A stretch of 64,000 bases of DNA from NCBI RefSeq assembly GCF_900403705.1, contig NZ_OUNR01000012.1:186001-250000 (forward strand), in the 5' to 3' direction. Shown one piece after another: positions 53,915-64,000 of the stretch (within the stretch, counting starts at the first letter, position 1; the number at the start of each line of letters is the position of its first letter). Made by a program: the position numbers and the translations under genes. The notes beneath the pieces are model-generated. The model worked only from the letters and a program-made list of their open reading frames with translations. It was not told the origin of the DNA and did not search any database. The stretch comes from Nitrospira lenta. GTDB taxonomy: Bacteria; Nitrospirota; Nitrospiria; Nitrospirales; Nitrospiraceae.

Positions 53915-54080
53915 CGATCTGTCCTCCTCTTGCTATTTCCGAGGGCAAGCGTCTCATCAACGTTCGGGAAGAAACTTAACACCATCAGATTAACCCTGTG
54001 TTAACAGGTAGTTAAAAGTGTCTAATCTTTGATTGAATGTGTGGGGGGGTATTGCCGCCGGGGCAACTTGTTGGCAGTGA

Positions 54081-54131
54081 TAATGTTTGACACTTGGGAA
54101 TAATGTTTGACCATTAGTAATAAAGTGTGAC
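54081..54131 (+). repeat. 20-bp-periodic direct repeats, putative TnsB sites
   Basis: TAATGTTTGAC at 54081 and 54101 and TAAAGTGTGAC at 54121 are spaced exactly 20 bp apart. A weaker copy (TAAAGCTTGAG) lies at 54200. Tn7 ends are built from arrays of about 22-bp TnsB-binding sites, so this is the probable tnsA-side end. Upstream, TGTGGGGGGG at 54040-54049 recalls the TGTGGGCGG terminus of Tn7, but the exact end and target duplication are not settled. Confidence 0.55.
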
Positions 54132-54342
54132 CCTAAAAAAGGCTGGTGTTAGCGGTGACAAAGTCCAAGACTTAGGAATAATTACGCCAGACTTGGTGAT
54201 AAAGCTTGAGAACAAGAGCGGCTGGGAAGAACTCATTAAATAGTGGAGCCGACCCGCGGAGCAGGAATTTAATGGACCACACTAAAATGCAATTCCTGTG
54301 TCCATAAAGCTTATAAAAAGCTCAATGCAGAAGCCCGCAGAA

Positions 54343-54762: not shown

Positions 54763-56358
54763 ATGAAGTCAGACATTTCGACGAAACTCACTACAGAGAC
54801 GGCGTACTTCAATCAACTGATCGCCGATATCAAGAAGGGTGAAGTCAAGATCCCACAGTTCCAGCGCAAATTCGTCTGGAAGGACGAGCAGGCACTCGAA
54901 CTACTGGACTCAGTGGCAAACGGTTATCCGATTGGCAGCATTTTGCTTTGGAAGACTGTCGACAAACTTAACGCAGCCCGCGACATCGGAGTCTTTCAAT
55001 TACCGAAGACTGACGAGATAACGCCAACCAACTACGTCTTGGACGGACAGCAGCGACTTACGGTCATCTACTCATGCTTGGGAGCGCCGGAGAACGCGCC
55101 AGGCTACATGGCTGGGTACGACCTCGCCAACGAAACATTCCTCGAACTCAAGCCCGGCGCTGGAAGGCCCGATGTCTTCCCGCTGCGTAAGCTCTTCCAG
55201 ACGACAAGCCTTCTGAATTATCGGACCTCGCTCTTGGCTCTGCCAAATGCCGCCCAGTTACAGCAGCGGCTGGACGACCTAATCGCGGCGTTTACCCAGT
55301 ACAAGCTTCCGGTTGTCACGCTCAAGGATCTTACTATTGATGAGGTATGCCCCATCTTCGAGCGCATCAATAGTTCTGGTACTCGACTGTCTACCTATGA
55401 CTTGATGGTTGCTGCTACTTGGGCAGAGGACTTCGACCTGAATGAGAAAGTCGGTGGAATCCTTGCGTCGATAGAATCAAAAGGCTATGGGGAGACGGAG
55501 AGATCCACGATCCTCAAAGCAGTCTCGGCAGTCCAACTTGATTCGATTCAAGACAAGGCCCTCCGAGACCTTCGCAAGCTGACCACTCCTGAGATTGAAG
55601 CACTTGCCGTGCGTACTGAATCGGCGCTCAAGCACGCAGTTGACGCGTTAAGCACTCAGTTCAAAATTCACAGTTGGGACTTTCTCTCCTACGAGGCCGT
55701 CTTAATAATCACGACCTACCTTTTCCGCGACACAAAACACCTCTCGGCCGAGCAGTCAGCTCGCCTACGTCAGTGGTTCTGGCGCGCGTCGTTCGGTGAG
55801 CGGTACAAGGTCGGCGGCGAGAACTTTGTTTCCCGTGACCTAGAAATAGTCCGACGCTATGTCTTGGAAGGCGTCGGCGACCCTGAACAATTCGGCACTA
55901 TCCCAATAGCTGCTGAATGGGCAAAGACACAATTCAAGAGCAATGTCTCCCGCTCCCGTGCATACATCCTGGCACTAGCGGCAGCTGCACCTAGAAACCT
56001 ACCCAACGGGATGGTCGTGGACGTCGAGCACGCACTGTCCTCCTATAACAAGAAGGAATACCACCATGTGTACCCGCGGGCATACCTTAAGGCGCTGGGT
56101 GAAGGTGAAACGTCGAATGTTCTGGGCAACATCATCATGTTGACCGCTGCATCGAACAAGACGATATCGGATAACTCGCCCGCAAAGTACATTCCCGCTA
56201 TCGTGGCTTCTCTTGGGAAAGAGTGCGACGCAGTGTTTGCGTCAAACCTTCTGCCTCTACCCTCGTCCTTCGATTATGCCAAGAGTTCGTACGGCGATTT
56301 CCTTGCGGCCCGCGGTCCACTTATATCGAAACACGTCGAGGACCTCATCCTGACTTAG
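54763..56358 (+). CDS. DUF262 protein with C-terminal HNH-like domain (GmrSD-type effector)
   Basis: 531 residues. The DUF262 domain begins with an IPQFQRKFVWKDEQALELL motif and carries DGQQR at residues 94-98, the conserved nucleotide-binding/hydrolysing site of the ParB-like fold. The C-terminal part has YHHVYP (H434, H435) followed by GNIIMLTAASNKTISD, fitting the DUF1524/HNH nuclease layout. GmrSD-type enzymes cut glucosylated or otherwise modified phage DNA, and many DUF262 proteins are phage-defence effectors. Located inside the Tn7-like element between its end and the tns genes, so it is probable cargo. Target not known. Confidence 0.85.
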   Translation: MKSDISTKLTTETAYFNQLIADIKKGEVKIPQFQRKFVWKDEQALELLDSVANGYPIGSILLWKTVDKLNAARDIGVFQLPKTDEITPTNYVLDGQQRLTVIYSCLGAPENAPGYMAGYDLANETFLELKPGAGRPDVFPLRKLFQTTSLLNYRTSLLALPNAAQLQQRLDDLIAAFTQYKLPVVTLKDLTIDEVCPIFERINSSGTRLSTYDLMVAATWAEDFDLNEKVGGILASIESKGYGETERSTILKAVSAVQLDSIQDKALRDLRKLTTPEIEALAVRTESALKHAVDALSTQFKIHSWDFLSYEAVLIITTYLFRDTKHLSAEQSARLRQWFWRASFGERYKVGGENFVSRDLEIVRRYVLEGVGDPEQFGTIPIAAEWAKTQFKSNVSRSRAYILALAAAAPRNLPNGMVVDVEHALSSYNKKEYHHVYPRAYLKALGEGETSNVLGNIIMLTAASNKTISDNSPAKYIPAIVASLGKECDAVFASNLLPLPSSFDYAKSSYGDFLAARGPLISKHVEDLILT

Positions 56359-56572
56359 GCGGGCAAATCAAATCCCGCTTTGGCACCGAAGAAATATTTT
56401 CTCTGGACAGAGTTAGGCTACCTATTGACGGAGTTTGTAGACGAGAAATCGCGCAAAGCCTCGCCCAGAGCCTCATTGGCAAGGTGGTTACCATCGCATT
56501 CCATCTTTGAGGGAAATGACTGAATTTCCAATTGTGCTACTAGGAGGAACAAGTGGTTTAGGTCTACCCTCG

Positions 56573-57097
56573 TCATGAAAGGCGTTTCTTGCCTTTGTTC
56601 TTTGTTTCCCTATGGTCCTTCTGTGACCCTTCCGGAGACGGCTTCCCATACAACTGAAGTAGCCTGTGGTTATATTCGAGACGGTCCTGGGTCAGCAGCC
56701 AGGCCATCTTGGCAAGCTGCTCCAGGTGGTCGCGAATTTGGATATCTCCATGCACGTAGGCGCGAGTGAAGTCTTCCACCGGTTTCAACTCTCTAGGGGA
56801 CAAGTTCCCAAGCAGTCCAGCAATTCCACGGATTTCGTCTTTATATACACCTAGCCCAGGTTGGGTTCCCACGCAGAGATAGTCGATTGTCACGCCAAGC
56901 TCTCTCGCCATCTTCGTGAGTACATCGGCGCGAGGTATCCGTTCTCCTGAGAGATACAAGCTCAAGGCGCGAATCGATATTCCAATCCGATCCGCCAATG
57001 TCTCTTGCTTGAAGCCTTTATCGTTGATGGCCTTCCTGAGGTGCCGTCCAAATCCCTTGAATGTATAGCCCCAGCCTCCTTCATCCTCAATCGTCAT
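56573..57097 (-). CDS. XRE-family HTH regulator, divergent from tnsA
   Basis: 174 residues from the ATG at 57097 (AGGAGGG four bases upstream). N-terminal Cro/CI-type HTH: FKQETLADRIGISIRALSLY then GERIPRADVLTKMARELGVT. The C-terminal 100 residues are helical and may dimerise. It shares a 273-bp divergent promoter region with tnsA that contains two GTGC/GCAC dyads, one within the tnsA promoter spacer. A repressor of the tns operon and of itself is the natural inference. Confidence 0.82.
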   Translation of the reverse strand: MTIEDEGGWGYTFKGFGRHLRKAINDKGFKQETLADRIGISIRALSLYLSGERIPRADVLTKMARELGVTIDYLCVGTQPGLGVYKDEIRGIAGLLGNLSPRELKPVEDFTRAYVHGDIQIRDHLEQLAKMAWLLTQDRLEYNHRLLQLYGKPSPEGSQKDHRETKNKGKKRLS

Positions 57098-57120
57098 AAG
57101 ACCCTCCTCTAGAACACAAA

Positions 57121-57138
57121 TGTGCAAGGTCTAGCACA
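57121..57138. promoter_or_regulatory. Putative operator 1 (TGTGC-N8-GCACA)
   Basis: Perfect five-base arms TGTGC and GCACA, 24 bases upstream of the XRE start codon and positioned to overlap any promoter of that gene. Probable regulator binding site; not tested. Confidence 0.45.
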
Positions 57139-57147
57139 ATCATGCAG

Positions 57148-57175
57148 TTGACACAAGCACATACGTGCATAAGAT
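57148..57175 (+). promoter_or_regulatory. Promoter of the tns operon with embedded dyad
   Basis: TTGACA at 57148-57153, a 16-bp spacer and TAAGAT at 57170-57175. The dyad GCAC-ATAC-GTGC (57157-57168) lies wholly inside the spacer, the classic place for a repressor site. The leader to the tnsA ATG is long (about 190 bases). Confidence 0.5.
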
Positions 57176-57370
57176 AATGCGGCATGTGATGGACAGGTTG
57201 TTGCGGCCCTGCGGCGCGGCATGAATCAAAAGTCTTCATGGTCAGATGGGAAAATGTCAGTGGTGCCCTAAGACAAATTGTCATTCTGCGCGCCGTTAAT
57301 GTCAGGCTCGGTATTGTTTGTACGGAACAGATGTGCAGGTTGTCAAACCTATATCCAGAAGGAGGTGCGT

Positions 57371-58258
57371 ATGCCAAGGCGAACTCGAGTACGTGGAAAG
57401 CATCGGTGGCAAGCGGCATCGAGGAGCAAGCGGCGGGGCCGTCACTTTCCGTTGCGACAAAGACGATTGCGTCTTCGTGCGTCGCGGTTCACAACACTTG
57501 GCTGTAAGAAGAAAGTCTTTCAACCAGGAGTCCGCATTTGGAGCTTTTCATCGCATGGTCGGTCCCACCGTCCCTTGGGATGGACCACCGACCGCGTCCA
57601 TCATCTCCTGAGTGATCTCGAGTATCACGTATTTCTGATACTCGATTGGGCTCGTGACGTCGTCGACATTCGGGAGCAGTTTCCGCTCCCGCTCCAAACG
57701 ACCCTGGCGATCGCCCGCCGGTCCCACCTGTCTCATCCCTGGGACCGCAAGCGCGCTCGTTACCGACCGGTCACATCGGACTTTCTCTATACCGTGCGGA
57801 CTCGTCACCGGGTTGAGCCTCACGTGCGGGCCCTTAAATACGAAGAGGCACTTTCGGAGCCGACTCAACTGCGAAGCCTTGAGATCGAACGCGCGTATTG
57901 GCATCAGCGGGGGATTGACTGGAAACTCATCCTCCACAGCCAAATCCCTCTCGCTTATGTCGCAAACATCGAATGGGTCCATCCCTATAGAAGACCGTTA
58001 TCACTGTATCCATTGGCCGGCGTTGAACTCGATCGGATCCAGCGTGTGTTGATACCCATGTTGAGGCGGTCCCATGATCGGTGTTGTGATGTGACGGATT
58101 GGTGTGACGCACGAATGCGACTTCCTGAAGGAACCGCCCTGGCGATGGTGCGCTATCTCATTGCGAATCGTCTCCTTCTGGTCGACATGCATATCCGCAT
58201 CATTCCGACCAATCCCCTCATTGTGCTGGACGACGCACAAGACGATTTCCTGCTGTAG
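57371..58258 (+). CDS. tnsA: Tn7-like transposition endonuclease TnsA
   Basis: 295 residues from the ATG at 57371, preceded by AAGGAGG. The N-terminal 50 residues are very basic. The nuclease core has SDLEYHVFLILDWARDVVDI (E84), REQFPLP, TSDFLYT (D137) and ALKYEEAL (K156), followed by the LEIERAYWHQRGIDWKLI helix typical of TnsA. The restriction-enzyme-like triad E-D-K is intact. TnsA cuts the 5' ends, giving cut-and-paste transposition with TnsB. First gene of tnsABCD. Confidence 0.92.
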   Translation: MPRRTRVRGKHRWQAASRSKRRGRHFPLRQRRLRLRASRFTTLGCKKKVFQPGVRIWSFSSHGRSHRPLGWTTDRVHHLLSDLEYHVFLILDWARDVVDIREQFPLPLQTTLAIARRSHLSHPWDRKRARYRPVTSDFLYTVRTRHRVEPHVRALKYEEALSEPTQLRSLEIERAYWHQRGIDWKLILHSQIPLAYVANIEWVHPYRRPLSLYPLAGVELDRIQRVLIPMLRRSHDRCCDVTDWCDARMRLPEGTALAMVRYLIANRLLLVDMHIRIIPTNPLIVLDDAQDDFLL

Positions 58259-58274
58259 TCACAAAGGAGGACAA

Positions 58275-60497
58275 ATGGAGATCTCAGAAAACATTGTGAT
58301 CGAGTGGGAGGATGAGAGAAGAGAACGGGTGCTGCGGTTGTCCACAGACCGGAGCGAATGGATCTGTATTGTCTTAGCCGCGAAGCGCTTGACGCTGAAG
58401 CGGTACGACGTGGAAGAGCTGCAGGCTGCGCTCGACCGCGGTGTGGTGAAGATTCTTGATCATGATCCGATGCAGGCCCCCTACGCCAATATGCCAGACC
58501 ACCAAATCCGCAAGACACTTCGTCGGGTGAGAGACCGACGCTGGAGACGGGTAAGAGAAGTCTTTACGAATCCCAAGATTCTGGATGATGCCTGTCGGTC
58601 GAGGCTCCTCAAGTCAGTGGTTCCCCACCGAACAGGCTATCGGTTATTGACGCGCTATTTGAAATGCGGGCAAACGCCGAACGCACTCTTGGCGGACTAT
58701 GATCAATGTGGAGCCAAGGGTCAGCCGCGAGAGATTGCGGTGAATGAGAGAAGGCGTCCACCGAAGGCCTCGCGGTCTCACGAACCAACGAAGGCCATAC
58801 GCGAAGTGTTTCAGTGTTGGCTCGAAGAGAAATATGACAAGAAGACGAAGCCGTCCCTTCATGACATTTTCATTGCCATGTCAGGGGCTGAATGGTCCTG
58901 TGGTTTTGAATTGAACCACGATGGCACACGGGTACCCAAGTTACTGCCTCAAGATCACCGTCCAACGGAAGATCAGTTTCGGTACTACTTCAATCACTAT
59001 CATGATCCAGAACGGTCAGCCGAGCAGCGTATGGGAGCCGTGATGGCGGCGAGAGCCGCCAAGGTCCGAGATCGTGATACCCGCCATCTCGCCTTTGGGC
59101 CCAACTCTCTGTGGATGGGAGATGGGATGGATTCTCGCGTTTATATCAGGGAAGGTGATGAGGACACTGAACCAGACAACCTCATCCGATCTACAGTCAA
59201 GACCGAACTGTTCATTATCGATGGGGACGATTCGCTGCAGATTCTCGGCGCCCCCAAAATCTATGCGATTGGAGACGTCTTCACGGGAGCTATTCTGATT
59301 GCCTATGCCACGTTGGAGGAAGAAAGTTACGAGAGTATTAAAACCGCTTTTGAACTCGCCACCTGTGACAAGGTTGAATACTGCCGACAGCACGGCATCA
59401 CCATCGCCGAGCATGAATGGCCGTTCCGTCACCTCCCTGATGCCATCCTCACTGATCGCGGCCCGCTGAGGGGCAAAATGGGCGATCATCTAGCCAAGGT
59501 GTTTGGAATCAATGTCCAAACGACGGCGCCGTACCGCCCAGATCTCAAAGGCTTTATTGAGCGGACGATTCGGACCATTCGACAACGGCTACTGAATTCC
59601 TTGCCGGGAGCGTCGCGCGGGCGTCGCACACCGGGTGAGGAGGATCCACGCTTAAAGACCGCGCTGACATTGAAGGAGCTCAACACGCTCCTCATCACTG
59701 CGACCCTGTACCATAACAACTTTCGTCGCCGGCGCAATTATCCCATCACTCCGGACATGCGTCGCGATGGTCTCCAGCCGTACCCGATTCGCATTTGGCG
59801 ATGGGGGGTCACGCGACGGTCGGGGGTCATGAGGATGCTGCCACAGGAGGTGATCCGTCACAAACTGCTGCCAGTGGCGACGGCCAGGATGACCGAACAG
59901 GGCGTGTATTTCGGCAAGCTGTATTACGGGAGTACGGGCGCGTTCTTCCATACCATGCGGTTTCGAGCAAAACATCGCGGCACATTCTCTGTCTCGATTG
60001 CTTTCGATCACCGATTGGTTGACGTCGTCTATCTCTTACGCGACGCTGGGCGTGAGTTTGTGAAATGCGAGATCAAAGGCTCGAGCGATCGATTTGCAGG
60101 GCGGAGTTGGGCCGAGGTGAGGGCGCTTCTCAGGGAAGAGCGTCGTCAAACGACGCTGGCCCGAACACGAGATGATCAGGGTACGCTCGCCTACCAGACG
60201 CTGGCCACCAAGATTGTGAAGACCGCTGGCGCGCGAGCCGCCAAGCTGCGTCGAGCCCCTTCTGCGGCTGCCCAGGTTCGCGGAATTCGACAGACCTGGC
60301 AGGCGGGGAAACGTCGGCGCCGCGTGGCCAGTGCCAGAGCGCAGCATGGAGTAAAGCCCAACCACGCCGCTAGGTCAACCCGTCGGGGCGCATCTGCCCC
60401 CACTGCCCCGCCCCTCTCGACCCGTCGCAAACGCCTCTTAGGAACCTTCAATCGTGTGTGGAAAGGAGGTCGTGATGGCCGAATGTCCCGTGTGTGA
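58275..60497 (+). CDS. tnsB: Tn7-like transposase TnsB (DDE)
   Basis: 740 residues from the ATG at 58275 (AAAGGAGG upstream). N-terminal HTH region, then the RNase H-like core with D283 in LWMGDGMDS, D394 in AILTDRGP and E429 in KGFIERTIRTIRQ. This is the DDE triad, with D and E 35 residues apart. A Mu-type beta-barrel follows (LYYGSTGAFFHTMRF). The last 130 residues are strongly basic, rich in Arg/Ala. It cuts the 3' ends and joins them to target. It overlaps the tnsC start by 23 bases. Confidence 0.95.
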   Translation: MEISENIVIEWEDERRERVLRLSTDRSEWICIVLAAKRLTLKRYDVEELQAALDRGVVKILDHDPMQAPYANMPDHQIRKTLRRVRDRRWRRVREVFTNPKILDDACRSRLLKSVVPHRTGYRLLTRYLKCGQTPNALLADYDQCGAKGQPREIAVNERRRPPKASRSHEPTKAIREVFQCWLEEKYDKKTKPSLHDIFIAMSGAEWSCGFELNHDGTRVPKLLPQDHRPTEDQFRYYFNHYHDPERSAEQRMGAVMAARAAKVRDRDTRHLAFGPNSLWMGDGMDSRVYIREGDEDTEPDNLIRSTVKTELFIIDGDDSLQILGAPKIYAIGDVFTGAILIAYATLEEESYESIKTAFELATCDKVEYCRQHGITIAEHEWPFRHLPDAILTDRGPLRGKMGDHLAKVFGINVQTTAPYRPDLKGFIERTIRTIRQRLLNSLPGASRGRRTPGEEDPRLKTALTLKELNTLLITATLYHNNFRRRRNYPITPDMRRDGLQPYPIRIWRWGVTRRSGVMRMLPQEVIRHKLLPVATARMTEQGVYFGKLYYGSTGAFFHTMRFRAKHRGTFSVSIAFDHRLVDVVYLLRDAGREFVKCEIKGSSDRFAGRSWAEVRALLREERRQTTLARTRDDQGTLAYQTLATKIVKTAGARAAKLRRAPSAAAQVRGIRQTWQAGKRRRRVASARAQHGVKPNHAARSTRRGASAPTAPPLSTRRKRLLGTFNRVWKGGRDGRMSRV

Positions 60498-62058
60498 TCA
60501 GTTGCCGTCCTTTGCGAAGCATCTCCACCAGTATCCCGACCTCGGCATGGCGTGGTATGACGCTAACCCCTTGGCCCGAGGGCTCGGCCGTCTGCGAACA
60601 GACGACGAGGTGATACAACACCTCAGCCTTCCTCCTATGCTGCCTCCTGATATCCGGCAAAAACCCGCTCATGAGCGAGTCCATCACCTTGGGATAGCCA
60701 TAAAACGGCTCTTCATTCCCACCACAGAGGCCGTGCGTTTGTACCGCGCGATTGAGCAGATGCTCTATCAACGCTATGTTGAGCTGACACCGTTTCTGCC
60801 CGGGTTCACGAAAGAGGTCAAAAAGCGTAGCGCCCAATTCATGGAGGATTGGGTGGCCGACCTGTCCCCACAGGACCCTGTAGCAAATCATTTACTGGTA
60901 CGAGGATTTCCCGGGACTGGAAAAAGCCGGACGGTGCAGCGATGCCTATCTCTGTTCACGCCTGTGCTCTATCACAGTGAGTTTCAAGGAAGACCCTTTC
61001 CGTTCCAACAGCGTGTGGCGGTCAAACTTGATTGTCCACCGGAAGGATCTGTTCGTGGTCTGTGTCTGCAGTTTCTGGCTGAATTGGATCGCCTCTTCGT
61101 CCGCAAGGACGGCAGAAAGACGAATTATTTCCAGCACTACAAAAGACTGACGAAGAATGAGCTTTTGGTAGTCATGGCGGAACTCGCGTTGCAGCACGGG
61201 GTGGGGCTCCTCGTTATCGATGAAATCCAAAACCTTTTGGACGCCCTGGTGGATGGTCGGAGGGTCATCCTAAATTTTCTCGTGGGGCTTGAGAACACGA
61301 TCGGGGTCCCGGTGCTGGTCGTGGGCACCTATGCGGCGGATGAGCTGGTTTTGGCGCGCTATCACCAAGTACGCCGGTCGGAGGGCGAAGGCCATTTCGA
61401 ATGGGTGCCGATGATGTGTGATGAGGAATGGGACAAATTCGTGAAGGCACTATGGAGTTGTCAGGTCATTCAGAAACCGGCGCGCTTTGGCAAGGAGTTC
61501 AGTCAGACACTGTATGAACTGTCTGGAGGTGTGATGGACCTCGCGCTACGCATTTTTCGCTTTGCCCAGGAAGATGCCATCGCGGAAGAAACCGAGAGTG
61601 TGACGCTGCGGTCTCTGACCGAGGCTGCAGCCCACCACTGCCCGCTGAGTCGCGGTACTCTTGAAGCCCTCAAGGCGCGGGATTGGAATAATCCGTTGCT
61701 ACAGGATCTGTCCGATATGCTCACGGGCGAACAGCGCGAAGAGCTAAAAAACAGTCAGGGGACTGCACTTGCTGTGGCCGAAGCAGATGACGTCACGGCG
61801 CCACAACGCAAGCACTCCATCGACAAGGCAAAGCCAGCGAGCAAGAGGACAGCTTCAACAGGCCGCAAACAGAAGCCGCAGGCCTTAGGTGAAGCGACTT
61901 CGAGGCGACGCAAGTCGCCCTGCAAGCAGCGTCAGACGTGCACCGGACAACTCCAGAGATTGGTCAGCGAAGGGTCGGCCAATGGGGTATCAGCGACCGA
62001 GGCGCTCAAAGACCATGTGGCGAAGCCATCCACTGATCAGAAGGAGGCCCAGCCATGA
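60475..62058 (+). CDS. tnsC: Tn7-like AAA+ target regulator TnsC
   Basis: 527 residues from the ATG at 60475 (AAAGGAGG upstream). AAA+ ATPase with Walker A GFPGTGKS at 144-151 and Walker B LLVIDEIQ near 245. The N-terminus has a CPVC pair. The C-terminal 110 residues are a basic linker ending in a short helix (LQRLVSEGSANGVSATEALK) that is duplicated downstream. TnsC links target selection by TnsD to the TnsAB transposase. The stop overlaps the ATGATG of the following copy. Confidence 0.93.
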   Translation: MAECPVCDQLPSFAKHLHQYPDLGMAWYDANPLARGLGRLRTDDEVIQHLSLPPMLPPDIRQKPAHERVHHLGIAIKRLFIPTTEAVRLYRAIEQMLYQRYVELTPFLPGFTKEVKKRSAQFMEDWVADLSPQDPVANHLLVRGFPGTGKSRTVQRCLSLFTPVLYHSEFQGRPFPFQQRVAVKLDCPPEGSVRGLCLQFLAELDRLFVRKDGRKTNYFQHYKRLTKNELLVVMAELALQHGVGLLVIDEIQNLLDALVDGRRVILNFLVGLENTIGVPVLVVGTYAADELVLARYHQVRRSEGEGHFEWVPMMCDEEWDKFVKALWSCQVIQKPARFGKEFSQTLYELSGGVMDLALRIFRFAQEDAIAEETESVTLRSLTEAAAHHCPLSRGTLEALKARDWNNPLLQDLSDMLTGEQREELKNSQGTALAVAEADDVTAPQRKHSIDKAKPASKRTASTGRKQKPQALGEATSRRRKSPCKQRQTCTGQLQRLVSEGSANGVSATEALKDHVAKPSTDQKEAQP

Positions 62059-62373
62059 TGATCGGATGTGTGCGGCAGGGGACGGCTATTGCTGTCGTGG
62101 AAGCGGATGGCGCCTCGCTCGGTGAGCACTGCAAAGCCAATGACCAAGTCAGCGGAAGTCACAGTCCATTGTCATCACCCAGGAAGAAGATGCCAGCACA
62201 AGATTAAGAGATCGCCGAAACGGCGCAGATCCGCACGAAAGCCGCCCCAGTCCTGCCGTGGGCATCTTCAACGGTTAATCACTGAAGGGTCGGCGAAGGG
62301 CGTACCGCCGACTGAAGCGCTCAACAAGCATCTTGCCAGACCTGAAAATATGCCGGAGGAAACACAGCCATGA
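61756..62373 (+). repeat. Tandem duplication of the tnsC tail and tnsC/tnsD junction
   Basis: Copy 1 (about 61756-62060) is the tnsC tail. Copy 2 (about 62076-62375) lies immediately downstream at an offset of 320 bases at the start and 315 at the end. Matching parts: QGTALAVAEAD and QGTAIAVVEAD; LQRLVSEGSANGVSATEAL and LQRLITEGSAKGVPPTEAL; both end in CAGCCATGATG. The five-base difference puts the second half of copy 2 in another frame. Confidence 0.8.
62055..62207 (+). pseudogene. Short ORF from the duplicated tnsC tail, frameshifted
   Basis: 50 residues from the ATGATG that overlaps the tnsC stop. It begins MMIGC, like the tnsD start MMVTC, then continues as tnsC-tail sequence (QGTAIAVVEAD). 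It ends at a stop after a frame change. The rest of the copy continues in another frame to 62373, including the LQRLITEGSAKG helix. Probably a decayed duplicate, though a small independent product cannot be excluded. Confidence 0.5.
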
Positions 62374-64000
62374 TGGTGACCTGTATCCCGTTCCCATACG
62401 AGGAAGAGACAGTGATGAGCCTCTGTGCTCGGTACGCCGAGAGAATGCCGTATAAAACAATCAGACAGGTGATGATAGAGCTGTTCGGAGTTCATGTAGG
62501 TACGCTTCATCCGACTATGCCACGGCATCTCCATCGGTTCATGAGCGTTCTACCACCGGGGCATGGGCTGAGCATCGAGACGATCATAAGAAACCACACA
62601 CTCCTTGAACTGTACTGCTTCTTTGCGCATGACGGTTGGCAGGAGAGGACCACCCAACTAATGAGCGAAGAACTCGCCCTTTATCCAAGCCGTTTAATAG
62701 AGTCAAGTTACGCTTCTGGGAAAGTACCATTACTTCGGTATTGCCCCATCTGCAGCCGGATAGATCGAACAAAGCGGGGAGAGACCTACTGGCGACGGTT
62801 ACATCAAGCGCCAGGGTGCTTGGTGTGTCCTGTCCACTGTGTGTTTCTCGAGGAGACCTCAGCCCGTGCCATGCTGCTGCGGCGTGAAGAAGCGTGGAGC
62901 CTCAATAGTCATACACTAGCCGACAACCCGCGAGTGCTAGACACGAATCAGAAAGATCATCACATACTGCTCCGACTAGCTAAGGACATGGAATGGTTGT
63001 TAGGGCATCCGGAGATGCTAGTCAGTCACGACACAGTAAAAACTGCATACGGCACAATTTTGGGAAAAGCCGGCTTCGTGACTCGCACCGGGCACTTTCA
63101 GGCTACAGCACTAGTAGAGAAAGCCCAGCAGTACTTCTCTCCCACGCTCCTATCATTGATCGGCGTGCCCATCAAAAACTTGGTTAATGGGATCCGAGGG
63201 CTGTTTAAAACAGATGAAGGACGACGCAGACCGGATCTCATCCGGCATCTCCTTGTACTTCAGCTGTTAGACCGATCCGTAGAAGAGTTCTTCAGCATGA
63301 AGCCGGTTTATAAATCTTCTAAGCTCGACGAGATCTATTCGCACGTTGCTGAACAGCGTGAAAATGAACTGAAAGGTCCTTGGCGATGTCCCAATCGAGC
63401 CGCTGGGCATTATGCCAAAATGGTCGTTAAGAAACGCAGAAAAGAGCGAAAGTGGGGCGATCGATGGGTCTTCAGCTGTAAGTGCGGTATGGTGTATCGG
63501 GCTACCCATCCTGATGGTCCAGGTCGTGTCTACAGCCGGCATATTGTTCATCATGGTGCTACATGGGACTCGAAGTTGCGCCAATTATGGGAGGAGCGGA
63601 CTTTATCGCTAGTCGCGATTGCAAAGCAGCTCGGCGTCGATAGGGGGCATCTCAGACATGAGGCCCAGCGCTTACAACTGTCCCTACCAAGGAGCGTGGC
63701 GCCGCAAGGGGGAATCACGAGCTTTCCCCCTCCTAGAAGGCGACGCCGTGCGCCAAATTTAGCCTTTCATCGAAAGGTGTTCTTAACCCTTCTTCAGCAG
63801 CATCACGGAAAACCAAGATCTTTCCTTTCAAGAGAAGCGCCCCCAAGCTATGCCGCGTTATGGAGGCACGACCGGCCTTGGATGACAACACATTTACCGC
63901 CAAAACTCATGAAGCGACCCAGCCAACAGAAGAGAGATTGGCCTCTGATAGATCGCACCTGGGAGGGGCGTATTAAAGAGGCATACGCCAAGCTTGTCGG
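62370..64000 (+). CDS. tnsD: Tn7-like target selector TnsD (TniQ family), 3' end outside the window
   Basis: At least 543 residues, open to the window edge. Start at ATG 62370 (GGAGG about ten bases upstream; 62373 also possible). TniQ N-terminal domain: IPFPYEEETVMSLCARYAER, then the zinc motif RYCPIC and GCLVCPVHCVFLEE. A second Cys set follows in GPWRCPNRAAGH and FSCKCGMVYRA, typical of the longer TnsD proteins, and further HTH-like parts (LVAIAKQLGVDRGHLRHEAQ). The length points to a DNA-binding TnsD that directs insertion to a fixed site rather than a short TniQ. Confidence 0.9.
   Translation, partial: MMVTCIPFPYEEETVMSLCARYAERMPYKTIRQVMIELFGVHVGTLHPTMPRHLHRFMSVLPPGHGLSIETIIRNHTLLELYCFFAHDGWQERTTQLMSEELALYPSRLIESSYASGKVPLLRYCPICSRIDRTKRGETYWRRLHQAPGCLVCPVHCVFLEETSARAMLLRREEAWSLNSHTLADNPRVLDTNQKDHHILLRLAKDMEWLLGHPEMLVSHDTVKTAYGTILGKAGFVTRTGHFQATALVEKAQQYFSPTLLSLIGVPIKNLVNGIRGLFKTDEGRRRPDLIRHLLVLQLLDRSVEEFFSMKPVYKSSKLDEIYSHVAEQRENELKGPWRCPNRAAGHYAKMVVKKRRKERKWGDRWVFSCKCGMVYRATHPDGPGRVYSRHIVHHGATWDSKLRQLWEERTLSLVAIAKQLGVDRGHLRHEAQRLQLSLPRSVAPQGGITSFPPPRRRRRAPNLAFHRKVFLTLLQQHHGKPRSFLSREAPPSYAALWRHDRPWMTTHLPPKLMKRPSQQKRDWPLIDRTWEGRIKEAYAKLV

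Follow-up and report, generated by a model that had tools for sequence, protein, structure and literature searches.

The quiescence of Tn7-like elements in an established host has largely been worked out on the target side, and much less so at the level of gene expression. In Tn7 itself, TnsB acting at the right end governs the tns promoter, a statement of which was not returned by our literature search. Local regulators have been described for the CRISPR-associated members of the Tn7-like group (PMC11406308, PMC9938897). The I-F3 CASTs carry the Xre regulators RtaC and RtbC, for which zygotic induction has been proposed (PMC11406308); VpxR (VPA1391), from a Vibrio I-F3 CAST, shows CI-like autoregulation and represses a neighboring gene (PMC12150760); and CvkR represses cas12k and tnsB in V-K CASTs (PMC9938897). 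An element of Nitrospira moscoviensis is named in a survey of Tn7-like elements (PMC8649781), and a repressor of the kind described below is mentioned neither there nor in a second survey (PMC10293859), in those portions of the two texts that the terms searched brought up.

We analyzed a 64,000-nt stretch of the Nitrospira lenta genome (contig NZ_OUNR01000012.1, positions 186,001 to 250,000; hereafter, the window), in which a gene encoding an XRE regulator is divergent from the tnsA gene of a Tn7-like element. Comparative evidence supports the view that this dedicated regulator would act at the tnsA promoter, and the sequence suggests that the element probably has a built-in off-switch: with a probability of roughly 0.7, XRE would serve as a local repressor of the tnsABC promoter, working through paired sites and giving rise to autoregulation and zygotic induction. 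RtaC/RtbC and VpxR resemble XRE in being Xre-type regulators inside Tn7-like elements, with sites at the promoters of element genes and CI-like logic. Their known targets are an atypical guide RNA array, the regulator itself, and a neighboring gene (RtaC and RtbC being compared here by description), whereas in N. lenta the promoter of tnsABC is the predicted target, and no cas gene was recognized in the TnsD-type element to which it belongs. CvkR, likewise small, is encoded divergently from one of the core genes of its element and directly represses core genes, including tnsB (PMC9938897); it differs in being of the MerR type, in its motif, AnnACATnATGTnnT, and in being divergent from cas12k rather than tnsA.

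Extent and gene order of the element

The Tn7-like element spans ~40 kb, from 54069 to ~94105 in window coordinates (L015:11106), and thus continues beyond the window. Its right end (54069 to 54211, forward strand) begins with TGTTGGCAGTG and contains four TnsB-like repeats, at 54076, 54096, 54116, and 54195; the other end (L015:11106, ~94105) reads as the reverse complement of TGTTAGCGGTG. Inside both ends are clusters of similar TnsB-like repeats. The flanking AACTT would fit a target duplication of 5 bp only on the assumption that the terminus and the flank have one base in common.

Inward from the right end, the gene order is a GmrSD/DUF262 cargo gene (54763 to 56358, forward strand; PF03235, E = 1.2e-31), which lies between that end and xre; xre itself (56573 to 57097, reverse strand; ATG at 57097 with a GGAGG Shine-Dalgarno sequence; 174 aa); tnsA (57371 to 58258, forward strand; ATG at 57371 with an AGGAGGT Shine-Dalgarno sequence; 295 aa; PF08722, 7e-14, and PF08721, 2e-13); tnsB, encoding the DDE transposase, between tnsA and tnsC (58104 to 60497, forward strand, as the longest frame, the true start being further in; a weak rve_3 match, 6e-4); tnsC, encoding the AAA+ ATPase (60454 to 62058, forward strand, as the longest frame; AAA_22, 3e-16, and TniB, 3e-11); tnsD/tniQ (62370 to 64000, forward strand, running past the window end to ~64304; PF15978, 2.5e-44); and a second tnsD (PF15978, 6e-66). 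The Tn7-like core set is therefore present in order, with Pfam matches for TnsA, TnsC, and TnsD, and weakly for TnsB, and both TnsD proteins have the TnsD C-terminal region. When the open reading frames of the 40-kb element were read through, neither type I-F cas genes nor a guide array was recognized. As further cargo, the element carries a BREX-type defense set (L013:13744-18563 and L015:1-6788; ~76743-89787), in which BrxA, BrxB, and BrxC were identified by profile and the methylase-like, PglZ-like, and BrxL/Lon-like frames that follow by eye, with a WYL regulator further upstream. A flavoprotein frame located within the element, close to the left end (L015:8927-10195), resembles a longer one just outside (L015:13744-15108), which suggests that a partial copy was captured as cargo.

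The prototype Tn7 shares with this element the order tnsA, tnsB, tnsC, tnsD, the TnsB-like end repeats, and a right end on the tnsA side; the difference is the regulator gene that here separates tnsA from the right end. The right-end repeats extend no further than 54211, which leaves 2.9 kb between them and the tnsA promoter and makes Tn7-style control by TnsB unlikely here; no TnsB-like repeat was found in the xre-tnsA interval of either N. lenta or N. moscoviensis (best scores of 7.8 and 3.5 bits, compared with 15-20 bits for the end repeats). In N. moscoviensis, no gene of the element lies closer to the right end (L016:7898) than xre, which separates that end from tnsA. In many relatives attached at glmS, the first gene upstream of tnsA is glmS itself, a few hundred bp away, and their right end must therefore sit beside tnsA. 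The layout agrees with the original prediction that phage-like control would distinguish this element from classical Tn7; the idea is, however, less novel than was implied, since CRISPR-associated relatives already provide examples of local regulators. While the principle is known, its direct placement on tnsABC in elements without recognized CRISPR genes appears to be new as far as the literature accessible to searching goes.

The XRE protein and the xre-tnsA interval

XRE has an N-terminal domain of the HTH_3/Cro-CI type at residues ~13-76 (Pfam HTH_3, E = 1.4e-13; Phage_CI_repr, 1.8e-6), well above the curated HTH_3 cut-off (PF01381, 51 bits vs. 23), and this DNA-binding domain is a feature that it shares with lambda CI and ICEBs1 ImmR. 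The right operator of phage lambda has a center spacing of ~23 bp, and in lambda, as here, tandem operators about that far apart lie over a promoter between divergent genes. Unlike lambda CI, XRE yielded no Pfam match to the S24 peptidase domain at E 0.1, so that self-cleavage of the CI/LexA type is not expected. The nearest named model is that of RstR, but XRE falls outside this phage repressor family (NF041951; 46 bits, from the HTH part alone, vs. a cut-off of 80); among the nearest solved chains is the Xre-family regulator of ICEBs1 (7t8i, E = 0.0024). An AlphaFold model built from two sequences is confident for the HTH, and gives a helical C-terminal part with pLDDT <50. Searches with XRE found no relative in the genome contigs and a single match, to the HTH part alone, among plasmids; in viral contigs, neither the XRE pair nor TnsA had a relative. 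The predicted recognition helices of XRE (SIRALSLY) and its N. moscoviensis counterpart (SIRSMSMY) are alike, which would be in keeping with a half-site common to both proteins.

The predicted tnsABC promoter, TTGACA-16-TAAGAT (57148 to 57175, forward strand; -35 box, 57148-57153; -10 box, 57170-57175), is present and directed towards tnsA as originally predicted, and scores 13.5 bits, whereas the highest score among 100 shuffled versions of the interval was 12.7. With the tnsA start at the ATG at 57371, the predicted transcript would have an untranslated leader of ~190 nt, within which lies a AAGACAAATTGTCAT palindrome. No convincing candidate for an xre promoter was found in the interval, either here or in N. 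moscoviensis; the best here were TTGACA-18-TACAAA at ~57346 and a weak TTGTGT-17-TAGACC over the operator-like sites described below. The former, a fair match that faces back to xre, would make the transcripts overlap; it and the leader palindrome fall within 57270-57346. An Rfam scan of 56400-57500 gave no match.

Two dyads had been put forward as operators, one in the promoter spacer and one near the XRE start. Both exist, GCAC-N4-GTGC at 57157-57168 and TGTGC-N8-GCACA at 57121-57138, 24 nt from that start, but each is at chance level, and each in its exact form is absent from N. moscoviensis, a relative that keeps the regulator. Of 400 dinucleotide shuffles of the 273-nt xre-tnsA interval, 261 contained a palindrome equal to its best one, and elsewhere in the window both motifs occur again by chance. 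We therefore rejected the dyads, as first drawn, as the operator. What that relative does keep is a revised motif, AGCA-N6-TGCA. The dyad in the spacer coincides with the core of this motif's second copy (57156-57169), while the TGTGC/GCACA dyad probably represents the facing arms of the copy at 57133 and a weak third copy.

The revised motif forms a pair. Site 1, AGCACAATCATGCA (AGCA-N6-TGCA; 57133 to 57146), is directly upstream of the tnsA -35 box, and site 2, AGCACATACGTGCA (AGCA-N6-TGCA; 57156 to 57169), fills the -35/-10 spacer and is 23 bp away from site 1. The two are separated by GTTGACACA, which includes the -35 box, and are followed immediately by the -10 box; relative to xre, both are situated upstream of the start codon, at a distance of 36-72 nt. 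A possible weak third site, AACACAAATGTGCA (57113 to 57126), is 15 nt from the XRE start, has one core mismatch, and is not significant alone.

The same divergent pair is found in N. moscoviensis NSP M-1, a member of the same genus (xre, L016:7185-7664; tnsA start, 6948). The XRE proteins are 34% and the TnsA proteins 37% identical, indicating that conservation of the motif is not a matter of recent DNA copying. Read towards tnsA, the N. moscoviensis interval contains AGCAGAATTCTGCT-AATTGAAAG-TGCAGCTTGATGCT; common to both intervals are a paired WGCA-N6-TGCW, the 23-bp spacing, and a 9-bp gap with a TTGA hexamer (TTGACA here, TTGAAA in N. moscoviensis). Site 1 of N. moscoviensis is at the center of a perfect 16-bp palindrome, TAGCAGAATTCTGCTA, and none as good arose in 400 shuffles. 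The full pattern, WGCA-N6-TGCW-N9-WGCA-N6-TGCW, occurs at two places in 146 related genomes, both of them xre-tnsA intervals. Because the motif had been chosen after viewing both sequences, the shuffle test was corrected by admitting any palindrome with 3-bp half-sites and a gap of 2-12: 445 of 80,000 shuffled interval pairs had a common half-site palindrome at least twice in each interval, and when equal spacing of 12-40 bp was also demanded, the number fell to one in 80,000. As this particular XRE and the motif occur together in two genomes only, conservation here means a single comparison; a further search for TnsA in the Nitrospirota added one element, whose upstream side is an IS. In N. 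moscoviensis, the -10 sequence opposite TTGAAA is poor (TATTTC, with a spacer of 15), and the best promoter of the interval, at 6.5 bits, is within the range of the shuffles. A third AGCA-N6-TGCA copy in that species (L016:6978-6991), ~30 nt upstream of the tnsA start and outside the presumed promoter, does not fit simple promoter occlusion.

Upstream regulators in other lineages

Divergent xre-tnsA pairs were also found in the Paenibacillaceae. Among 80 TnsA loci, three Paenibacillus elements have an xre divergent from tnsA (the Dechloromonas XRE, ~560 bp from tnsA, was left out of this count), and all eight genomes with a Paenibacillus-type XRE at E <= 1e-20, out of 104 genomes of the family searched, have it in that position. 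Most of these tnsA promoters have TTGACA with an AT-rich -10. A dyad surrounds the tnsA -35 box in six of nine Paenibacillaceae loci, and the arms of this dyad vary from one element to another while remaining complementary to each other (AATCGACT/AGTCGATT, TTACTCGACT/AGTTGAGTAA, and ATTATTTAAC/GTTAAATAAT); no motif was common to these dyads and the Nitrospira sites. One Paenibacillaceae xre (L143/L146, G415:C1:47364-47817) has an internal stop codon, while the neighboring tnsA looks intact, a combination that amounts to a natural test of derepression.

Other kinds of gene occupy the position upstream of tnsA elsewhere. In three Nitrospira genomes (L020, L021, L023, and L024; i.e., G014, G022, and two identical N. 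moscoviensis copies), a different HTH gene is directly upstream of and co-directional with tnsA, with a response-regulator gene adjoining in most; from its position, this HTH gene would be another local regulator of a Tn7-like element. Three elements of Betaproteobacteria have a small DUF6471 protein encoded divergently from tnsA (L058:2934-3182, L063:2939-3214, and L070:3007-3261), which may be a tns regulator, and a possible ribbon-helix-helix gene is located upstream of tnsA in Calothrix.

Predicted action of XRE and its alternatives

We infer the following course of events from the arrangement of the interval. An XRE dimer would bind each of the two AGCA-N6-TGCW sites, whose 23-bp separation (~two helical turns) would permit cooperative binding on one face of the DNA. 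XRE on sites 1 and 2 would then cover the -35 box and the spacer, excluding RNA polymerase and keeping expression of tnsABC(D) low. Because the sites are so close to the xre start (36-72 nt upstream), this binding would also affect the xre transcript, i.e., would be autoregulatory. Upon entry into a cell without XRE, the tns genes would be expressed until XRE accumulates, which is zygotic induction. Dimer binding, repression rather than activation, autoregulation, and zygotic induction are all predictions of this scheme, and so is the "self-contained" nature of the switch.

A different use of the same sites, in which XRE chiefly regulates itself, activates tnsA, or is a dual regulator as in phage lambda, strikes us as unlikely. 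Site 1, directly upstream of the -35 box, is in a position that activators also use, the sites are near the xre start, and XRE could be an activator in the manner of VpxR, which is reported to activate its own promoter while repressing others (PMC12150760); site 2, however, is in the -35/-10 spacer, where a bound protein normally blocks polymerase, and -35 and -10 boxes so near consensus should make an activator unnecessary. It is less probable still that XRE is cargo unrelated to tns control, for example, a regulator of GmrSD or BREX that is beside tnsA by chance. While GmrSD adjoins xre and the element has BREX genes, GmrSD and xre are tail-to-tail and have no common promoter region, N. moscoviensis retains xre-tnsA without GmrSD at the corresponding place, the paired motif occurs in the whole genome solely between xre and tnsA, and the divergent arrangement recurs in the Paenibacillaceae.

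We likewise consider it improbable, and slightly more so, that TnsB holds the tns promoter down as in Tn7 and that the dyads are due to chance. TnsB control of a right-end promoter is indeed the Tn7 picture, and the two dyads first proposed are individually at chance level; the distance of the end repeats and the lack of any scoring repeat in the interval of either species argue against this explanation, and the revised paired motif is not a chance occurrence. The least probable of the alternatives, and very improbable in our view, is that XRE is no transcription factor but a target-site or transpososome accessory, a DNA-binding partner of TniQ/TnsC. Some Tn7-like elements do target via separate DNA-binding partners (TnsF in Tn6022; PMC10293859), but the two TnsD proteins of this element both include the TnsD C-terminal region, and the conserved motif is at the promoter, not at the element ends or flanks.

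Should XRE repress tnsABC as we propose, a 40-bp stretch and a 174-aa protein would constitute an off-switch that directly governs transposase gene expression in an ordinary Tn7-like element of the non-CRISPR kind, and the divergent xre-tnsA pairs of the Paenibacillaceae would make such an XRE switch a recurring solution. We extend this, tentatively and at somewhat less than even odds, to the proposal that, in unrelated phyla, non-CRISPR TnsD-type elements have repeatedly gained a prophage-style XRE repressor in the space from the right end to tnsA, so that a lysogeny-like off state, with a burst of transposition on entry, took the place of control by end-bound TnsB. If so, which elements no longer control their own promoter through TnsB may be predictable from the presence of a regulator gene between tnsA and the end.
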